Positions 20,940 through 30,442 of a stretch of 39,083 bases of DNA are shown in pieces. A program made the translations under genes and the position numbers. Source of the DNA: an uncultured Eubacteriales bacterium (GTDB taxonomy: Bacteria > Bacillota > Clostridia > Christensenellales > RUG350); the NCBI GenBank assembly GCA_900315995.1, contig ONBF01000016.1, positions 1 through 39,083 on the forward strand, read 5' to 3'. Below the pieces are notes generated by a model. That model was not told the DNA's origin. It did no database searches and saw only the letters and a program-made list of their open reading frames with translations. Within the stretch, counting starts at the first letter, position 1. The number at the start of each line of letters is the position of its first letter.

Positions 20940-21995
20940 TTAAGTTGTTTTTACGGGATCGCCACGAGACGTGACAATACGGTATCCGATGGAGTCGATT
21001 CGCTTTTTGAGACAAGCAAGACACAGTGTCGGTTCTTCTTCCGTGCAAATCTTTCCATCATATAATATGTAATTTGTTTTTGCGGAAAGCGGCGAGATAT
21101 TCGGCATAACGACGTTTGCGCCCGCCGAAATTCCGCGTTCTCTTCCGTGTGGGGTGACGGTGGCAAGTGCCGTTGTCGCGGGAAGTAAAACGCTTGGCAA
21201 AATAAGTCTGATAACGGATAAAAGAAAAATCGTCAATTCGGCAGTACCGCTTTTCATATTGCAAAAGGGTGTGTTTTTGTGTGAAATGAAAGGACCTATT
21301 CCGCACATTTCGGGACGAAACGTTTCAAGGAAAAAAAGGTCTTTTGCAATAATTTCAGGCGTTTGATACGGCGATCCGACCATAAATCCGCAACCGACTT
21401 GATAGCCGATTTCGCGAAGATTATATAAACATTGTATTCTGTTTTCAAATGAACAGTCCACGGGGTGAAGTTTTCCGTAATGAACTGCGTCCGCGGTTTC
21501 GTGGCGCAAAAGATAGCGATCTGCTCCCGCTTGAAACAATTTTCGGAAACTTATTTTTCCGCGTTCGCCGAGAGATAGCGTAATTGCGCAATCGGGATAG
21601 AGTGCTTTTACAGTCGAAATCAAATCGCAAAGCAAATCATCGGTGTAGAAAGAGTCCTCTCCGCCTTGTAACACAAAAGTTCTGATTCCCAAAGCGTACC
21701 CACTTTTGCAACAAGCAAGTATATCTTCCGCCGAAAGACGATACCTTTTGCATTTTTTATTACTTCGACGAATACCGCAATAAAAGCAATCATTTTTGCA
21801 GTAATTGCTTATTTCGATCAATCCGCGAACGTAAACGTCATTGCCGTACACGCTTTTGCGGACGTTTTCCGCATGTTCTTGTAAGAATTTTGCGGTTGTA
21901 TCCGTTCTGTATCTTATAAGCTCCGCATATTCTTCGACTTTGAGACTATGTTGCTCCGCAAGTTTTTTCGCGAGAAAAAGCGATCGATTATTCAT
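20940..21995 (-). CDS. hydE: [FeFe]-hydrogenase maturase HydE
   Basis: HydE is a radical SAM protein acting between HydG and HydF in building the dithiomethylamine-bridged diiron centre. The 351-residue protein has C66-x3-C70-x2-C73 (CKNDCFYC) near the start of a TIM-barrel, plus FVLQGGEDSFY and SLGERG, both usual for HydE. Its ATG overlaps the stop of the upstream regulator (ATGA), so translation is coupled. Context with hydG and hydF removes the ambiguity with biotin synthase and PylB. Confidence 0.95.
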   Translation of the reverse strand: MNNRSLFLAKKLAEQHSLKVEEYAELIRYRTDTTAKFLQEHAENVRKSVYGNDVYVRGLIEISNYCKNDCFYCGIRRSNKKCKRYRLSAEDILACCKSGYALGIRTFVLQGGEDSFYTDDLLCDLISTVKALYPDCAITLSLGERGKISFRKLFQAGADRYLLRHETADAVHYGKLHPVDCSFENRIQCLYNLREIGYQVGCGFMVGSPYQTPEIIAKDLFFLETFRPEMCGIGPFISHKNTPFCNMKSGTAELTIFLLSVIRLILPSVLLPATTALATVTPHGRERGISAGANVVMPNISPLSAKTNYILYDGKICTEEEPTLCLACLKKRIDSIGYRIVTSRGDPVKTT

Positions 21996-24755: not shown

Positions 24756-25337
24756 ATGAGAGTGATACTTGCCACTAATTCAAAACGTCGTCACGATATA
24801 TTCAATACGGTCGGGATAAAGTACGAAGTCGTTACAAGCGACGTCGACGAAATAAGCAACGCAAAAAAGCCCGACGAATATGTAAAAGAGTTATCGAAAA
24901 ACAAAGCCGAAGCGGTTTCTGAGAAGTTAAAAGATAAAGCGGTCATAGTATCCGCGGATACGATAGTTTATATGGACGGAAAGACGTACGAAAAGCCGAA
25001 GAACAAACGCGAAGCGTTCGAGAGTATGAAAGAGATGTCGGGCAAGAAGACGTACGTTTATACGGGTATGACGGTAAAGGATACGTATCAAAACAAGACG
25101 GTAACTTTGTGCGACGTATGCGCGGTTTTCGTAAGAGAAATGACGGACGACGAAATAAAGTGGTACGTCGATAATCAAGAAAATATTTTGGATATAAGCG
25201 GGTATGCAATGCTCGGAAAGGCGGATTTATTCTTGGAAAAAATCGAAGGGGACTATAACACGCTGTTCGGAATATCTCCCGCGAAAGTTTACGAAGTGCT
25301 TAAAAGTTTCGGATATAAATTAGCGGATTTTACTTAA
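24756..25337 (+). CDS. maf: Maf-like nucleoside triphosphate pyrophosphatase
   Basis: This 193-residue Maf/YhdE-type protein hydrolyses unusual or modified nucleoside triphosphates to monophosphates. The phosphate-binding start LATNSKRRHDIF (a variant of S-x-RR), the catalytic SADTIV near 66-71, the lysine in YEKPKNKREA and KKTYVYTG are all visible. The end IEGDYNTLFGISPAKV fits the family. Within the family it may be dTTP/UTP- or other-specific, which the sequence does not settle. GGGGAAG precedes the ATG. It lies only 3 bp before the BioY-HAD fusion, which has a phosphatase domain related to other nucleotide-cleaning enzymes. Confidence 0.88.
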   Translation: MRVILATNSKRRHDIFNTVGIKYEVVTSDVDEISNAKKPDEYVKELSKNKAEAVSEKLKDKAVIVSADTIVYMDGKTYEKPKNKREAFESMKEMSGKKTYVYTGMTVKDTYQNKTVTLCDVCAVFVREMTDDEIKWYVDNQENILDISGYAMLGKADLFLEKIEGDYNTLFGISPAKVYEVLKSFGYKLADFT

Positions 25338-25340
25338 AAA

Positions 25341-26618
25341 ATGAAAGGGAAGCGACACACGTTAAATCTTGCGTATATTGCAACGGGCGCGGTGCTTATC
25401 ACCGTTTGTTCGTGGTTAAGCATACCGACCGCCGTACCGTTTACGATGCAGACGTTTGCCGTATTTGCCGTCCTGTGTATGCTCGGCGGAATACGCGGAA
25501 CGGCGTCGATAGTCGTATACATACTGCTCGGCGCAATAGGTTTGCCCGTCTTTGCGGGATTTCAAAACGGCGCGGGCGTAATTATGGGCTTGACCGGCGG
25601 ATATATATTGGGGTTTGTGTTTATCGGACTTATTTATACGCTGTTTGAAAAACTTGTCGGCGCAAAGTTTCCGATTACGATAACGGCGTTAAGTATCGGA
25701 CTTGTTGCGTGCTATGCGTTCGGGACGGTTTGGTTTATGCGTATGTACGCAAAAGACATCGGAGATATAGGTTTGGGTGCAGCGCTTGTTACTTGCGTAC
25801 TGCCGTTTATTATACCCGACGTCGCAAAGATGGCTCTTGCGCTCGTTATATCGTCACGCGTCAGAAAATACATTGTCGCGCCGATTGATAAAAAGGAACG
25901 TAAAGTAAAAGAATTAAATATCAAAGTTGTGTTTGTAGACGTAGACAACACTCTTCTCGATTTCGACGCGTACGTAAAGAGCACTATGAAAGAAGGCTTT
26001 AAGGAGTTTGCCCTTAAACCGTATAAAGATTATATGTTCGACGTGTTTACGAAAGAGAACGACAGGCTGTGGCATATGATTGAAGATAAGACGTTGACGC
26101 TCGAAGAATTGAGAAAAATGCGGTGGAATCTGATATTCAAGTTACTTGACGTTGACGCGGACGGCGAAAAGTTCGAGACGTATTTCAGGGACAAACTGAA
26201 CGACAGCGCAATCGTTATCGACGGAGCAATCGACTTTCTTAAATATTTGCACGAAAAGTATATCGTGTGCGTTGCGAGCAACGGACCGTACGAGCAGCAA
26301 TCAAAGCGACTTAATCTTGCGGGTATGTCGGACTACATCGATTATACGTTCATATCGGAAGATATAGGGGCGAACAAACCCGACAAAGAGTTTTTCGACG
26401 AGTGTATGAAAAGGCTTAATGACGGTAGGGATATAAGAATAAATCCCGACGAGTGTATGATGATAGGCGACTCGTTATCGTCCGACGTCGCGGGCGGAAC
26501 GGCGGCACAAATGAAGACGTGTTTATTCGAGCGCAAAAAGAGCAATAAGAACAAAGGCGTCGATATAAAGCCCGACTATACGATAAAAACTTTGAAAGGA
26601 ATAAGCGATATAATATAA
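25341..26618 (+). CDS. BioY biotin-transporter S component fused to HAD phosphatase
   Basis: One unbroken 425-residue frame joins two families. Residues 1-178 form a BioY-like membrane domain with PFTMQTFAV (33-41), GLPVFAGFQNG (67-77), GLTGGYILGF (83-92) and IIPDVAKMALAL (158-169). A basic linker (KKERKVKEL) leads to a HAD hydrolase: DVDNT nucleophile loop (D200, D202), ASNG (S313), K346 in GANKPD and GDSLSSD (D377, D382). The HAD part resembles YjjG/YfnB nucleotidases with a helical cap. BioY normally binds biotin in an ECF transporter. No stop or ribosome site is seen between the domains. The start has no clear ribosome site and lies 3 bp behind maf, so coupling is likely. Confidence 0.88.
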   Translation: MKGKRHTLNLAYIATGAVLITVCSWLSIPTAVPFTMQTFAVFAVLCMLGGIRGTASIVVYILLGAIGLPVFAGFQNGAGVIMGLTGGYILGFVFIGLIYTLFEKLVGAKFPITITALSIGLVACYAFGTVWFMRMYAKDIGDIGLGAALVTCVLPFIIPDVAKMALALVISSRVRKYIVAPIDKKERKVKELNIKVVFVDVDNTLLDFDAYVKSTMKEGFKEFALKPYKDYMFDVFTKENDRLWHMIEDKTLTLEELRKMRWNLIFKLLDVDADGEKFETYFRDKLNDSAIVIDGAIDFLKYLHEKYIVCVASNGPYEQQSKRLNLAGMSDYIDYTFISEDIGANKPDKEFFDECMKRLNDGRDIRINPDECMMIGDSLSSDVAGGTAAQMKTCLFERKKSNKNKGVDIKPDYTIKTLKGISDII

Positions 26619-26620
26619 GT

Positions 26621-26923
26621 ATGGAAAAGGTAAAAATAACTGTCAAAAAAATCACGAGATACGACGATCTTATTAAAGAGTACGAAAATCCGATAGAGCA
26701 CGCGTGCGACCTTAAAGTTGGCGATACGTTTATATCGGTTGACGGATTAAAACCCGACGGGTTTTGCGACAGTGCGTGGGGAGTAATCGAATCGTTTGTA
26801 AAAGAGCTTGCGTTGGGCGGCGGAAACTTTTATGACGGTTGGATGAAAAACGAAAAGTCCGCAATGCTTTCATGTAACGATGGGTTTCGTCCCGTAACGT
26901 TTCTTATCGAAACGGTTAAATAA
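26621..26923 (+). CDS. TIGR04076 family protein
   Basis: This 100-residue protein matches the short TIGR04076 family: KVKITVKKI at the start, CDLKVGDTFIS (28-38), PDGFCDSAWGVIESFVKELALGGG and, near the end, CNDGFRPVTFLIE. The spaced cysteines (C28, C49, C85) are family-typical and might bind metal, but no function is established. It starts 2 bp behind the BioY-HAD stop with no ribosome site, so it is probably translated by coupling. Confidence 0.8.
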   Translation: MEKVKITVKKITRYDDLIKEYENPIEHACDLKVGDTFISVDGLKPDGFCDSAWGVIESFVKELALGGGNFYDGWMKNEKSAMLSCNDGFRPVTFLIETVK

Positions 26924-26934
26924 AGGAGATTGAT

Positions 26935-27297
26935 ATGCGAAAGAGAATACTCGAATACCGACGTTTTATCGACGGTTTACTTAAAAATTTCGGAGCGGAT
27001 ACAAACGTCGAAGACGTAATCGAAAATCACTTGACACAAATACGTTTTTTTCAACACGAAAGGCTGATACACTTGCTCGTGACGCTGGCGTTTGCTTTCT
27101 TCACGCTTATTTCGGTGTATGCGGCTGTCGTTAAGTCTTATATGTATTTGCTTGCGGTGGCGGGCGGATTTCTTATACTTCTCATACCGTATATAGCGCA
27201 TTATTTCATACTCGAAAACGAAACGCAAAAATTATATAAGCAGTACGACGAACTCGAAAAGATAAGAAAGGAAAAAGCAAAAAACGAAAACATATAG
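26935..27297 (+). CDS. Two-helix membrane protein, unknown function
   Basis: I do not recognise this 120-residue protein. It has an N-terminal helical, charged part (1-42), two membrane segments at about 44-66 and 69-92 with a short link, and a charged C-terminal helix (LYKQYDELEKIRKEKAKNE) that could form a coiled coil. AAGGAG is well placed. It follows the TIGR04076 gene by 11 bp and ends 45 bp before rubrerythrin, so it likely shares their transcript. Confidence 0.75.
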   Translation: MRKRILEYRRFIDGLLKNFGADTNVEDVIENHLTQIRFFQHERLIHLLVTLAFAFFTLISVYAAVVKSYMYLLAVAGGFLILLIPYIAHYFILENETQKLYKQYDELEKIRKEKAKNENI

Positions 27298-28039: not shown

Positions 28040-30442
28040 ATGAAGACGACAAAAACCATTGACATTGCAAGAGTTAAAAAAGACGTAAACGAAGGACTTT
28101 CGACAAATGAAGTCGAACAGAGAGTTTCGCAAGGACTTGTCAACGTATCCGACGTAAAGACGGATAAAACGTATTTCGGAATACTTGTAAAAAACGTTTG
28201 TACTGTTATCAATCTCATTTGTTTCGTAATAGTAGCCGCCGTGCTGTACGTCAAAGAGTACGCAAGCGCGCTGTTTGCGATAATTTTCATTGCCAATCTC
28301 GTAATAGGAACGGTTCAGGAAATGAAAGCGAAGCGCACGATTGATAAATTATCGCTTGTTGCAAAACCCGATTTGACCGTCGTGCGAAACGGTGAAAAGG
28401 TTAAAGTCAAAGCGGAAAATATAGTCGTGGACGATATAGTATACTACGGCGCGGGCGAACAGATTGTAGCCGATGCCGAATTTATAAACGGATATGTGGA
28501 AGTCAACGAGTCTATGCTTACGGGCGAATCGCGACCGATAAAGAAACACGCGGGAGATAAATTGTTTGCGGGAAGTTTCGTGTCGGCGGGCGGCGGATAT
28601 GCGCGCGTTATGAAAGTCGGTAAAGACAACTATATCGAAGGGCTGTCCGCAAAAGCGAGAAAATTCAAAGCGCCGAAAAGCGAACTTGTCGTATCACTCA
28701 ACAAGATAGTACGAATTTTGTGTATTATACTTATAGTACTCGGAATACCGCTGTTTATTCTCAACAGTACACGCAACGACGGAGATTTGACGATAGCCGT
28801 TACGCGTACCGCGGGATCTTTGGTCGGTATGATACCTGCCGGGATGTTTCTTTTGACGAGCGTTGCGCTTGCGGCGGGGATAGTCAAACTTGCGCGCAAA
28901 AAGACGCTTATTAAAGATCTTTACGGAATAGAGATGCTTGCGCGAAGCGACGTTTTGTGTTTAGACAAAACGGGCACTATCACGGACGGCACTATGAAAG
29001 TCGAAAACATCGAACTTTTGAGTGATACCGGCGTTGAAATCGAGAAAGTACTCAAAACGTTGATAACCGCGACTAACGGAAGCAACGCGACAGCCGTTGC
29101 CATAAGCAAATATTGCGCGAATTTCGAGATGCTTAATTATTCGGAAGCGTTGCCGTTCTCGTCCGAACGTAAAAAGTCAGCGGTTGAAACGGAGATAGGA
29201 ACCTTTGTTCTCGGCGCGAGCGAATTTGTACTGTCCGAAATGACGGATGAATTCAGAACGAAACTTAATTCTTATATGAGTAAAGGGTTGCGTGTTTTGA
29301 CGCTTGCGTCGGGCGGAAGTATTAACGACGGAGAACTCGTCGGAGAATTTAAGCCCGTTGCGCTTATAGTTCTTTCGGACTGCATAAGACCGGACGCGCG
29401 CGATACGATAGCGTGGTTTAAGGAGAATAACGTAGAAATAAAAATCATTTCGGGCGACGACCCCGTAGCCGTATCGAGCATAGCGGCGCAAGTCGGCGTC
29501 GTAAATGCGGAACGGTTCATAAATCTCGAAGGATTGAGTGAAGACGAAGTAAGAAAAGCCGCGAAGGAGTTTACCGTGTTCGGCAGAGTTACGCCCGAAC
29601 AGAAATTCTATCTTGTGAACGAGTTAAAGAGAAACGGTAAGACGGTCGCTATGACGGGAGACGGCGTAAACGATATTCTTGCGTTCCGAGAAGCCGATTG
29701 TTCGATTGCAATGGCGGAAGGAAGCGAAGCCGCTCGTCGCGTCGCCACGGTTGTTTTGTTAAATTCCGAGTTTTCGGTTATGCCCGACGTAGTCGTTGAA
29801 GGAAGACGTGTTATCAATAATATTCAAAAATCCTCGTCGCTTTTCCTTATGAAGAATATTTTTACGATATTTTTCACGATAATCATTATGTGTATACCCG
29901 GCGCGACATATCCGATTACGCCTAACAGACTTGTTCTATATGAGTTCGCCGTAATAGGTATCCCGTCGTTTATGCTTGCATTGCAACCCAATAAAGAAAT
30001 AATAAAGGGGCGATTTATTGTCACCGTTATGTCCGCCGCCGTGCCGTATGCGCTTGTTTTTCTGTTCAACGCGTTATTTACATATATACTCAAAGGGCAG
30101 TATGCGTTGAGTTATGAAGATATGCTCGTGTACAGTATGAATTATATAGGTTTCGTCGCGCTCGTTGCGTTGTCGCTACCGCTTAACAAATACAGATTTT
30201 TCCTTTGTTTCGGTTCGGTTATCGTCATAACGCTCGGCACGATAGTTTTGCCGAAAGTCAAACTCGGGGGAAATCCGATACTCGATATAGAAATGATAGG
30301 CGGAACGGACATACTGATACTTTGCGCATTGATAGCGGTTGCCGCGCTTTTGCTTTTCGCCTTTATAAAACTTTCGGATTTACTGACGAACAGATTGTTC
30401 GACAGCCAAACGGGACGGCTCAAAAGCAAACTTAAAGAATAA
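28040..30442 (+). CDS. P-type cation-transporting ATPase (HAD-IC family)
   Basis: This 800-residue membrane ATPase has the P-type signatures: LTGES (160-164), the phosphorylated aspartate D309 in DKTGT, and GDGVNDILAF toward the end of the catalytic domain. Membrane helices flank these at about 45-100, 220-290 and 600-790. It lacks the N-terminal metal-binding domains of heavy-metal pumps and resembles the CtpE-like / type II group. The M4 motif that is PEGL in Ca2+ and other type II pumps reads PAGM (266-269), so a calcium-binding glutamate is missing and the ion is uncertain. It converges on a Na+/Ca2+-type antiporter gene. Confidence 0.88.
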   Translation: MKTTKTIDIARVKKDVNEGLSTNEVEQRVSQGLVNVSDVKTDKTYFGILVKNVCTVINLICFVIVAAVLYVKEYASALFAIIFIANLVIGTVQEMKAKRTIDKLSLVAKPDLTVVRNGEKVKVKAENIVVDDIVYYGAGEQIVADAEFINGYVEVNESMLTGESRPIKKHAGDKLFAGSFVSAGGGYARVMKVGKDNYIEGLSAKARKFKAPKSELVVSLNKIVRILCIILIVLGIPLFILNSTRNDGDLTIAVTRTAGSLVGMIPAGMFLLTSVALAAGIVKLARKKTLIKDLYGIEMLARSDVLCLDKTGTITDGTMKVENIELLSDTGVEIEKVLKTLITATNGSNATAVAISKYCANFEMLNYSEALPFSSERKKSAVETEIGTFVLGASEFVLSEMTDEFRTKLNSYMSKGLRVLTLASGGSINDGELVGEFKPVALIVLSDCIRPDARDTIAWFKENNVEIKIISGDDPVAVSSIAAQVGVVNAERFINLEGLSEDEVRKAAKEFTVFGRVTPEQKFYLVNELKRNGKTVAMTGDGVNDILAFREADCSIAMAEGSEAARRVATVVLLNSEFSVMPDVVVEGRRVINNIQKSSSLFLMKNIFTIFFTIIIMCIPGATYPITPNRLVLYEFAVIGIPSFMLALQPNKEIIKGRFIVTVMSAAVPYALVFLFNALFTYILKGQYALSYEDMLVYSMNYIGFVALVALSLPLNKYRFFLCFGSVIVITLGTIVLPKVKLGGNPILDIEMIGGTDILILCALIAVAALLLFAFIKLSDLLTNRLFDSQTGRLKSKLKE

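Follow-up and report, generated by a model that had tools for sequence, protein, structure and literature searches.

BioY, the biotin S-component, and the HAD phosphatases of the YjjG/YfnB type are the described proteins closest to the gene reported here. According to PMC11109136, an S-component topples onto the ECF module to deliver its substrate, and the contact is made by a relatively conserved AxxxA motif in helix 1; some BioY proteins transport without an ECF module, and C-terminal extensions have been proposed to limit toppling in related receptors. The substrates of YjjG given in PMC8475336 are dTMP, dUMP, UMP, and noncanonical pyrimidine derivatives. Among the papers listed by literature searches on BioY, S-components, or ECF transporters, none pointed to a fusion of BioY with a phosphatase.

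The gene in question lies in the window, by which we mean the whole stretch of 39,083 nucleotides that was analyzed. By the ORF listing and its translation, it is a single open frame from ATG to TAA coding for 425 aa, with a BioY half and a HAD half and, as the first-pass annotation had claimed, no stop between them (Table 1). We think it probable that this frame represents a genuine but private fusion of two adjacent, co-directional genes, bioY and a YjjG-like HAD gene. It belongs to a tightly packed row (MATE, maf, bioY, YjjG-like HAD, TIGR04076), in which the fused gene is separated by 3 bases from maf on its 5' side, exactly as annotated before, and by 2 bases from the TIGR04076 gene on its 3' side, all on the same strand. 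Region 26621-27297 (+), 3' of the fusion and on its strand, codes for the TIGR04076-family protein and then for a 120-aa protein without a family match. In the window, every RNA family stayed below its gathering score, and a promoter scan gave 24 candidates against 22.5 expected, i.e., the chance level.

Table 1 Coordinates of the fused gene, its parts, and its immediate neighbors (positions in the window)
Feature	Position	Strand	Evidence
BioY-HAD fusion ORF	25341..26618	+	One frame; Pfam and NCBIfam matches
BioY domain, residues 1-180, six-helix S-component	25341..25880	+	Pfam, alignment, model
Linker codons 181-193 (PIDKKERKVKELN), read as a former spacer	25881..25919	+	BioY ends at about 180, HAD starts at 193
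HAD-IA phosphatase domain, YjjG/YfnB-like, residues 194-425	25920..26615	+	Pfam, NCBIfam, YfnB 3ed5, alignment
maf, nucleotide pyrophosphatase family	24756..25337	+	Pfam Maf, 155 bits; TIGR00172 above cut-off
TIGR04076-family protein	26621..26923	+	85.1 bits (cut-off, 33)

The two halves of the protein

The earlier assignment of residues 1-178 to BioY held, since the Pfam BioY model (PF02632) matches residues 30-176 with 126.8 bits (cut-off, 25) and is covered from position 2 to 140 of 140. In an alignment of 40 sequences, comprising the BioY half and 39 homologues with 49-64% identity to it, the BioY half carries all 37 invariant columns, among them P159, D160, and K163 of the PD-x-x-K end motif, T85-Y88 (TGGY), and P69-F71 (PVF), residues which, on our reading of this alignment, appear to define the BioY family. 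The predicted model is confident over about residues 10-178 (pLDDT block means of 75-98 for residues 11-180) and has the six-helix S-component fold; its top PDB match by Foldseek is L. lactis BioY (4dve), with a TM-score of 0.78 by target length, and by profile the BioY half matches the same structure with an E value of 1.6e-13. Helix 1 has A17-VLI-T21 instead of a strict AxxxA, the alignment consensus being A17-x-x-x-A21, and Thr at the final position is also present in several relatives, including the nearest one, L060. To judge from the invariant columns that it keeps, the BioY half looks functional.

The HAD half, too, turned out as annotated, with all four motifs located in invariant columns of its alignment. 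Pfam Hydrolase (PF00702; 83.9 bits, cut-off 26.4) and HAD_2 (71.3 bits) match residues 194-394, and TIGR01549 scores 47.1 bits (cut-off, 23.3). The motifs read DVDNT (200-204), SNG, KPD, and GDSLSSD, which we take to be, respectively, DxDxT, the motif II Asn, the motif III KP with its Lys, and the acidic residues of motif IV (GD...D), and the motif set of HAD subfamily IA is complete. All 17 invariant columns of an alignment of 23 sequences, 22 of them standalone HADs, are kept in the fusion, including D200, D202, T204, the SNG asparagine, KP, and GD(x)4D. The HAD half therefore looks functional as well, as far as sequence can tell.

The label YjjG-like stands in part: the best curated family is NCBIfam TIGR02254 (YjjG_YfnB; residues 195-424) and the best PDB match is B. 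subtilis YfnB (chains 3ed5, E value 6.5e-26, and 3i76), but the TIGR02254 score of 153.6 bits (155.7 in a second scan) lies below the curated cut-off of 159.9, which the nearest standalone HAD relatives exceed (L032, 170.9 bits; L003, 163.2 bits). Because the score falls just short of the YjjG cut-off, the substrate of the HAD half is uncertain. The structure prediction, suggested earlier as a way to examine domain packing, worked well for the BioY half; for the HAD half (pLDDT block means of 30-67), the model input contained hardly any HAD relatives, and the result says nothing usable about packing. A search of viral contigs with the HAD of the window returned no relatives, and one with the HAD alignment returned two distant ones. 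Also in the window, an 800-aa P-type ATPase (28040-30442, +) passes the general HAD-IC model but, of the models listed, none that is specific for a transporter.

Occurrence among related genomes

The same two-domain architecture was looked for in several genome sets and in 80 BioY loci and was not found again. The whole fusion was used as the query for protein searches in 61 genomes of relatives, 396 of the order, 391 of the class, 3 of the family, and 41 of the family with the nearest HADs. Some genomes belong to more than one of these sets, and the genome of the window itself is part of the first four. Matches were listed only below 1e-15 for the order and 1e-40 for the class, and below 1e-40 for the 41 genomes. 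Among the matches listed in these sets, one across both domains occurred in the window's genome only; at the E-value thresholds used (1e-15 and 1e-40), a fusion that had diverged strongly might have escaped notice. In a second collection, the best 80 of 337 confirmed BioY loci, matched through the BioY part, contained no fused HAD. A BioY match was present in 354 of 398 genomes of the phylum, with normal lengths except for a few among the matches listed, and of 108 other BioY frames, 107 measured 164-209 aa and one measured 268 aa.

Several candidates for a second fusion were rejected. The long BioY frames in G1068 (581 aa), G202 (619 aa), G253 (423 aa), and G946 (360 aa) have their excess length upstream of BioY and tails of only 4-32 aa after the BioY match; in G1068 and G946, the two longest listed for the phylum, the upstream part is open sequence with no fused domain. 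For L072 and L091, the match extends beyond residue 178, but no HAD was found there, and the 87-aa tail of the L004 BioY gave no HAD match. The last protein (L004:1246-2049, minus strand, in genome G037) has 87 extra residues at its C terminus, where Glu, Asn, and Val are abundant.

The fusion is thus on record in a single draft genome, whose genus is represented by no other species and whose family is represented by three genomes from three genera. Both protein families are well known; their arrangement in one protein is new and was found once. Separate bioY and HAD genes in relatives had been named beforehand as an observation that would speak against the fusion; relatives do have them separate, but this does not make the present junction false.

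The junction: gene fusion or sequence error

The basic linker noted previously between the two domains is indeed there (residues 184-190, KKERKVK). Both other reading frames have stops at the junction, and the open frame is therefore not a chance open stretch. The nearest BioY proteins terminate close to the position that aligns with residue 180, and the column of N193 holds Met in 19 of the 22 standalone HADs, 14 of which have no inserted residues (L045 has Met at 194); the fusion reads AAT and ATC here (codons 193-194), with no Met start. The stop of bioY and the start of the HAD gene are thus both missing, which favors a genuine fusion of adjacent genes. We read the 13 codons 181-193 as a former intergenic spacer that now probably serves as the linker; within it, a AAAAAGGAAC stretch at about 25890-25899 resembles, by eye, a ribosome-binding site.

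We regard as unlikely, if still to be reckoned with, the explanation that two separate genes were joined in the contig by an error, either a consensus indel or a short collapsed deletion. The confinement of the fusion to one genome would agree with it, as would the lack of a following HAD in all 108 other BioY frames. How easily such an error could arise was gauged from the 700 possible single-base edits in the stretch from codon 170 to codon 199, counting those which end BioY at ≤200 aa and those which give the HAD a start lying 3-14 codons ahead of V199. The former numbered 324 and the latter 31, and only 1 of the 700 restored both together; if the in-frame GTG197 is allowed as the HAD start, 319 of the 700 edits restore two genes. 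The case for an error by a single-base change hence depends on GTG197, yet with a start there the catalytic DxD would be preceded by no more than Met-Phe-Val, a shorter lead than nearly all of the 22 relatives have, and the first strand would be shortened; by eye, GTG197 has no clear ribosome-binding site. A deletion, for its part, would also have to keep the frame intact.

Cellular context and comparison with known systems

The genome of this uncultured, gut-type bacterium (G000; 1.31 Mb in 73 contigs, 97% complete) has one BioY and one close YjjG-like HAD, plus two weak ones (44 and 30 bits). Outside the window, it has one EcfT, coded after two ABC ATPase genes and before a tRNA pseudouridine synthase gene; one biotin ligase domain; and one biotin carrier domain beside carboxyltransferase, OAD-beta, and PYC_OADA genes, i.e., a biotin-dependent decarboxylase. 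Biotin is hence used, and with the EcfA-EcfA-EcfT operon, the biotin ligase, and the biotin-dependent decarboxylase coded elsewhere in the genome, ordinary biotin uptake is to be expected; the ECF ATPase and the biotin ligase that the first-pass annotation did not see in the window have their genes there. The protein coded at 20940-21995 (minus strand) of the window is HydE, the radical SAM maturase of [FeFe]-hydrogenase (546.7 bits), with a weak bioB match, and is not a biotin synthase.

In the 80 related loci, no maf was found beside the BioY genes and no YjjG-like HAD adjoined them, two HAD matches lying 2.5 and 3.5 kb away. The commonest neighbor was biotin ligase, with 13 of the 58 neighbors scanned (among the 25 most frequent of 66 families; the 58 were same-strand ORFs chosen by hand from 141 neighbor ORFs). 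Since a BioY-HAD neighborhood is not conserved, a functional link between the two is without support, and we see no sign of selection for the combination. The idea, put forward in the first-pass annotation, that uptake is coupled to dephosphorylation fares no better, as biotin is not a phosphate ester, no HAD adjoins bioY in the 80 loci, and no other fusion turned up.

The same observations weigh on the broader proposal that coupling was selected, for example, by placing the HAD activity at the ECF complex or under its control. Both domains are intact and each is the sole copy in the genome, and in the sensor histidine kinases described in PMC11109136 the S-component fold is joined to output domains in the cytosol; against the missing neighborhood, the single occurrence, a substrate lacking phosphate, and the prevalence of biotin ligase among BioY neighbors, we nonetheless hold selected coupling to be improbable. 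We give similarly little credence to one gene yielding two products, a separate BioY and a separate HAD, through an internal restart at GTG197 or through cleavage of the linker: GTG197 is in frame and residues 184-196 have low model confidence, as expected of a flexible stretch, but no good ribosome-binding site is seen by eye just upstream of GTG197, and the usual start position of the HAD is lost. That the protein is a transceptor-like enzyme, in which toppling of the S-component on biotin binding governs the substrate access or the activity of the tethered phosphatase, strikes us as highly improbable.

Under the private gene fusion that we favor, loss of the bioY stop and the HAD start would have made one polypeptide out of two genes of a tightly packed row. 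Together with the shared EcfA-EcfA-EcfT module, the BioY half would still serve as S-component for biotin, and the imported biotin would feed the single biotin ligase and the decarboxylase. The HAD would hang on the cytosolic C terminus of BioY by the short basic linker and may go on hydrolyzing (noncanonical) pyrimidine nucleoside monophosphates, possibly completing the work of Maf; the maf gene upstream would fit nucleotide house-cleaning. The fusion would have no consequence other than to tether the phosphatase to the membrane on its inner side. The membrane-anchored cytosolic phosphatase envisaged by the earlier annotation accordingly survives in conditional form: both domains are identified, and translation of the entire frame would entail the anchoring. 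The best reading is that one polypeptide carries two activities brought together by a chance fusion of neighboring genes, and we take them as independent because related BioY genes have neither maf nor an adjacent HAD beside them and most commonly have biotin ligase instead. Elsewhere in the family, in genome G001 (L156; G001:C35:40000-51000), a separate YjjG-like HAD gene adjoins a cytidylate-kinase-like gene and a second HAD gene, a neighborhood that fits a role with pyrimidine nucleotides.

If real, the fusion is a natural test of the C-terminal cargo that an S-component tolerates while toppling and docking on an ECF module that it shares; it also exemplifies the fusion of neighboring genes in a small (1.3 Mb) genome. 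By itself it reveals no new pathway, and it is most likely a private merger, not a new system.

Set beside L. lactis BioY (4dve), the protein shares the whole BioY domain and the six-helix fold and adds a C-terminal extension of 245 residues with an enzyme domain. With the YjjG/YfnB family (B. subtilis YfnB, 3ed5/3i76), it has in common a full-length match over residues 195-424 and the same motifs; it differs in that the N terminus of its HAD is joined to a membrane protein, with no free start, and in its score of 153.6 against 159.9. The overall plan recalls the 5TMR sensor histidine kinases, in which, as presented in PMC11109136, the S-component fold is likewise followed by a soluble cytosolic domain. 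Compared with the 5TMR receptors as that paper depicts them, the fusion is without the extra N-terminal helix H0, its first helix starting at residue 6 and corresponding to BioY helix 1; it keeps the conserved BioY residues; and its output is a metabolic HAD rather than a kinase, cyclase, or chemotaxis domain.
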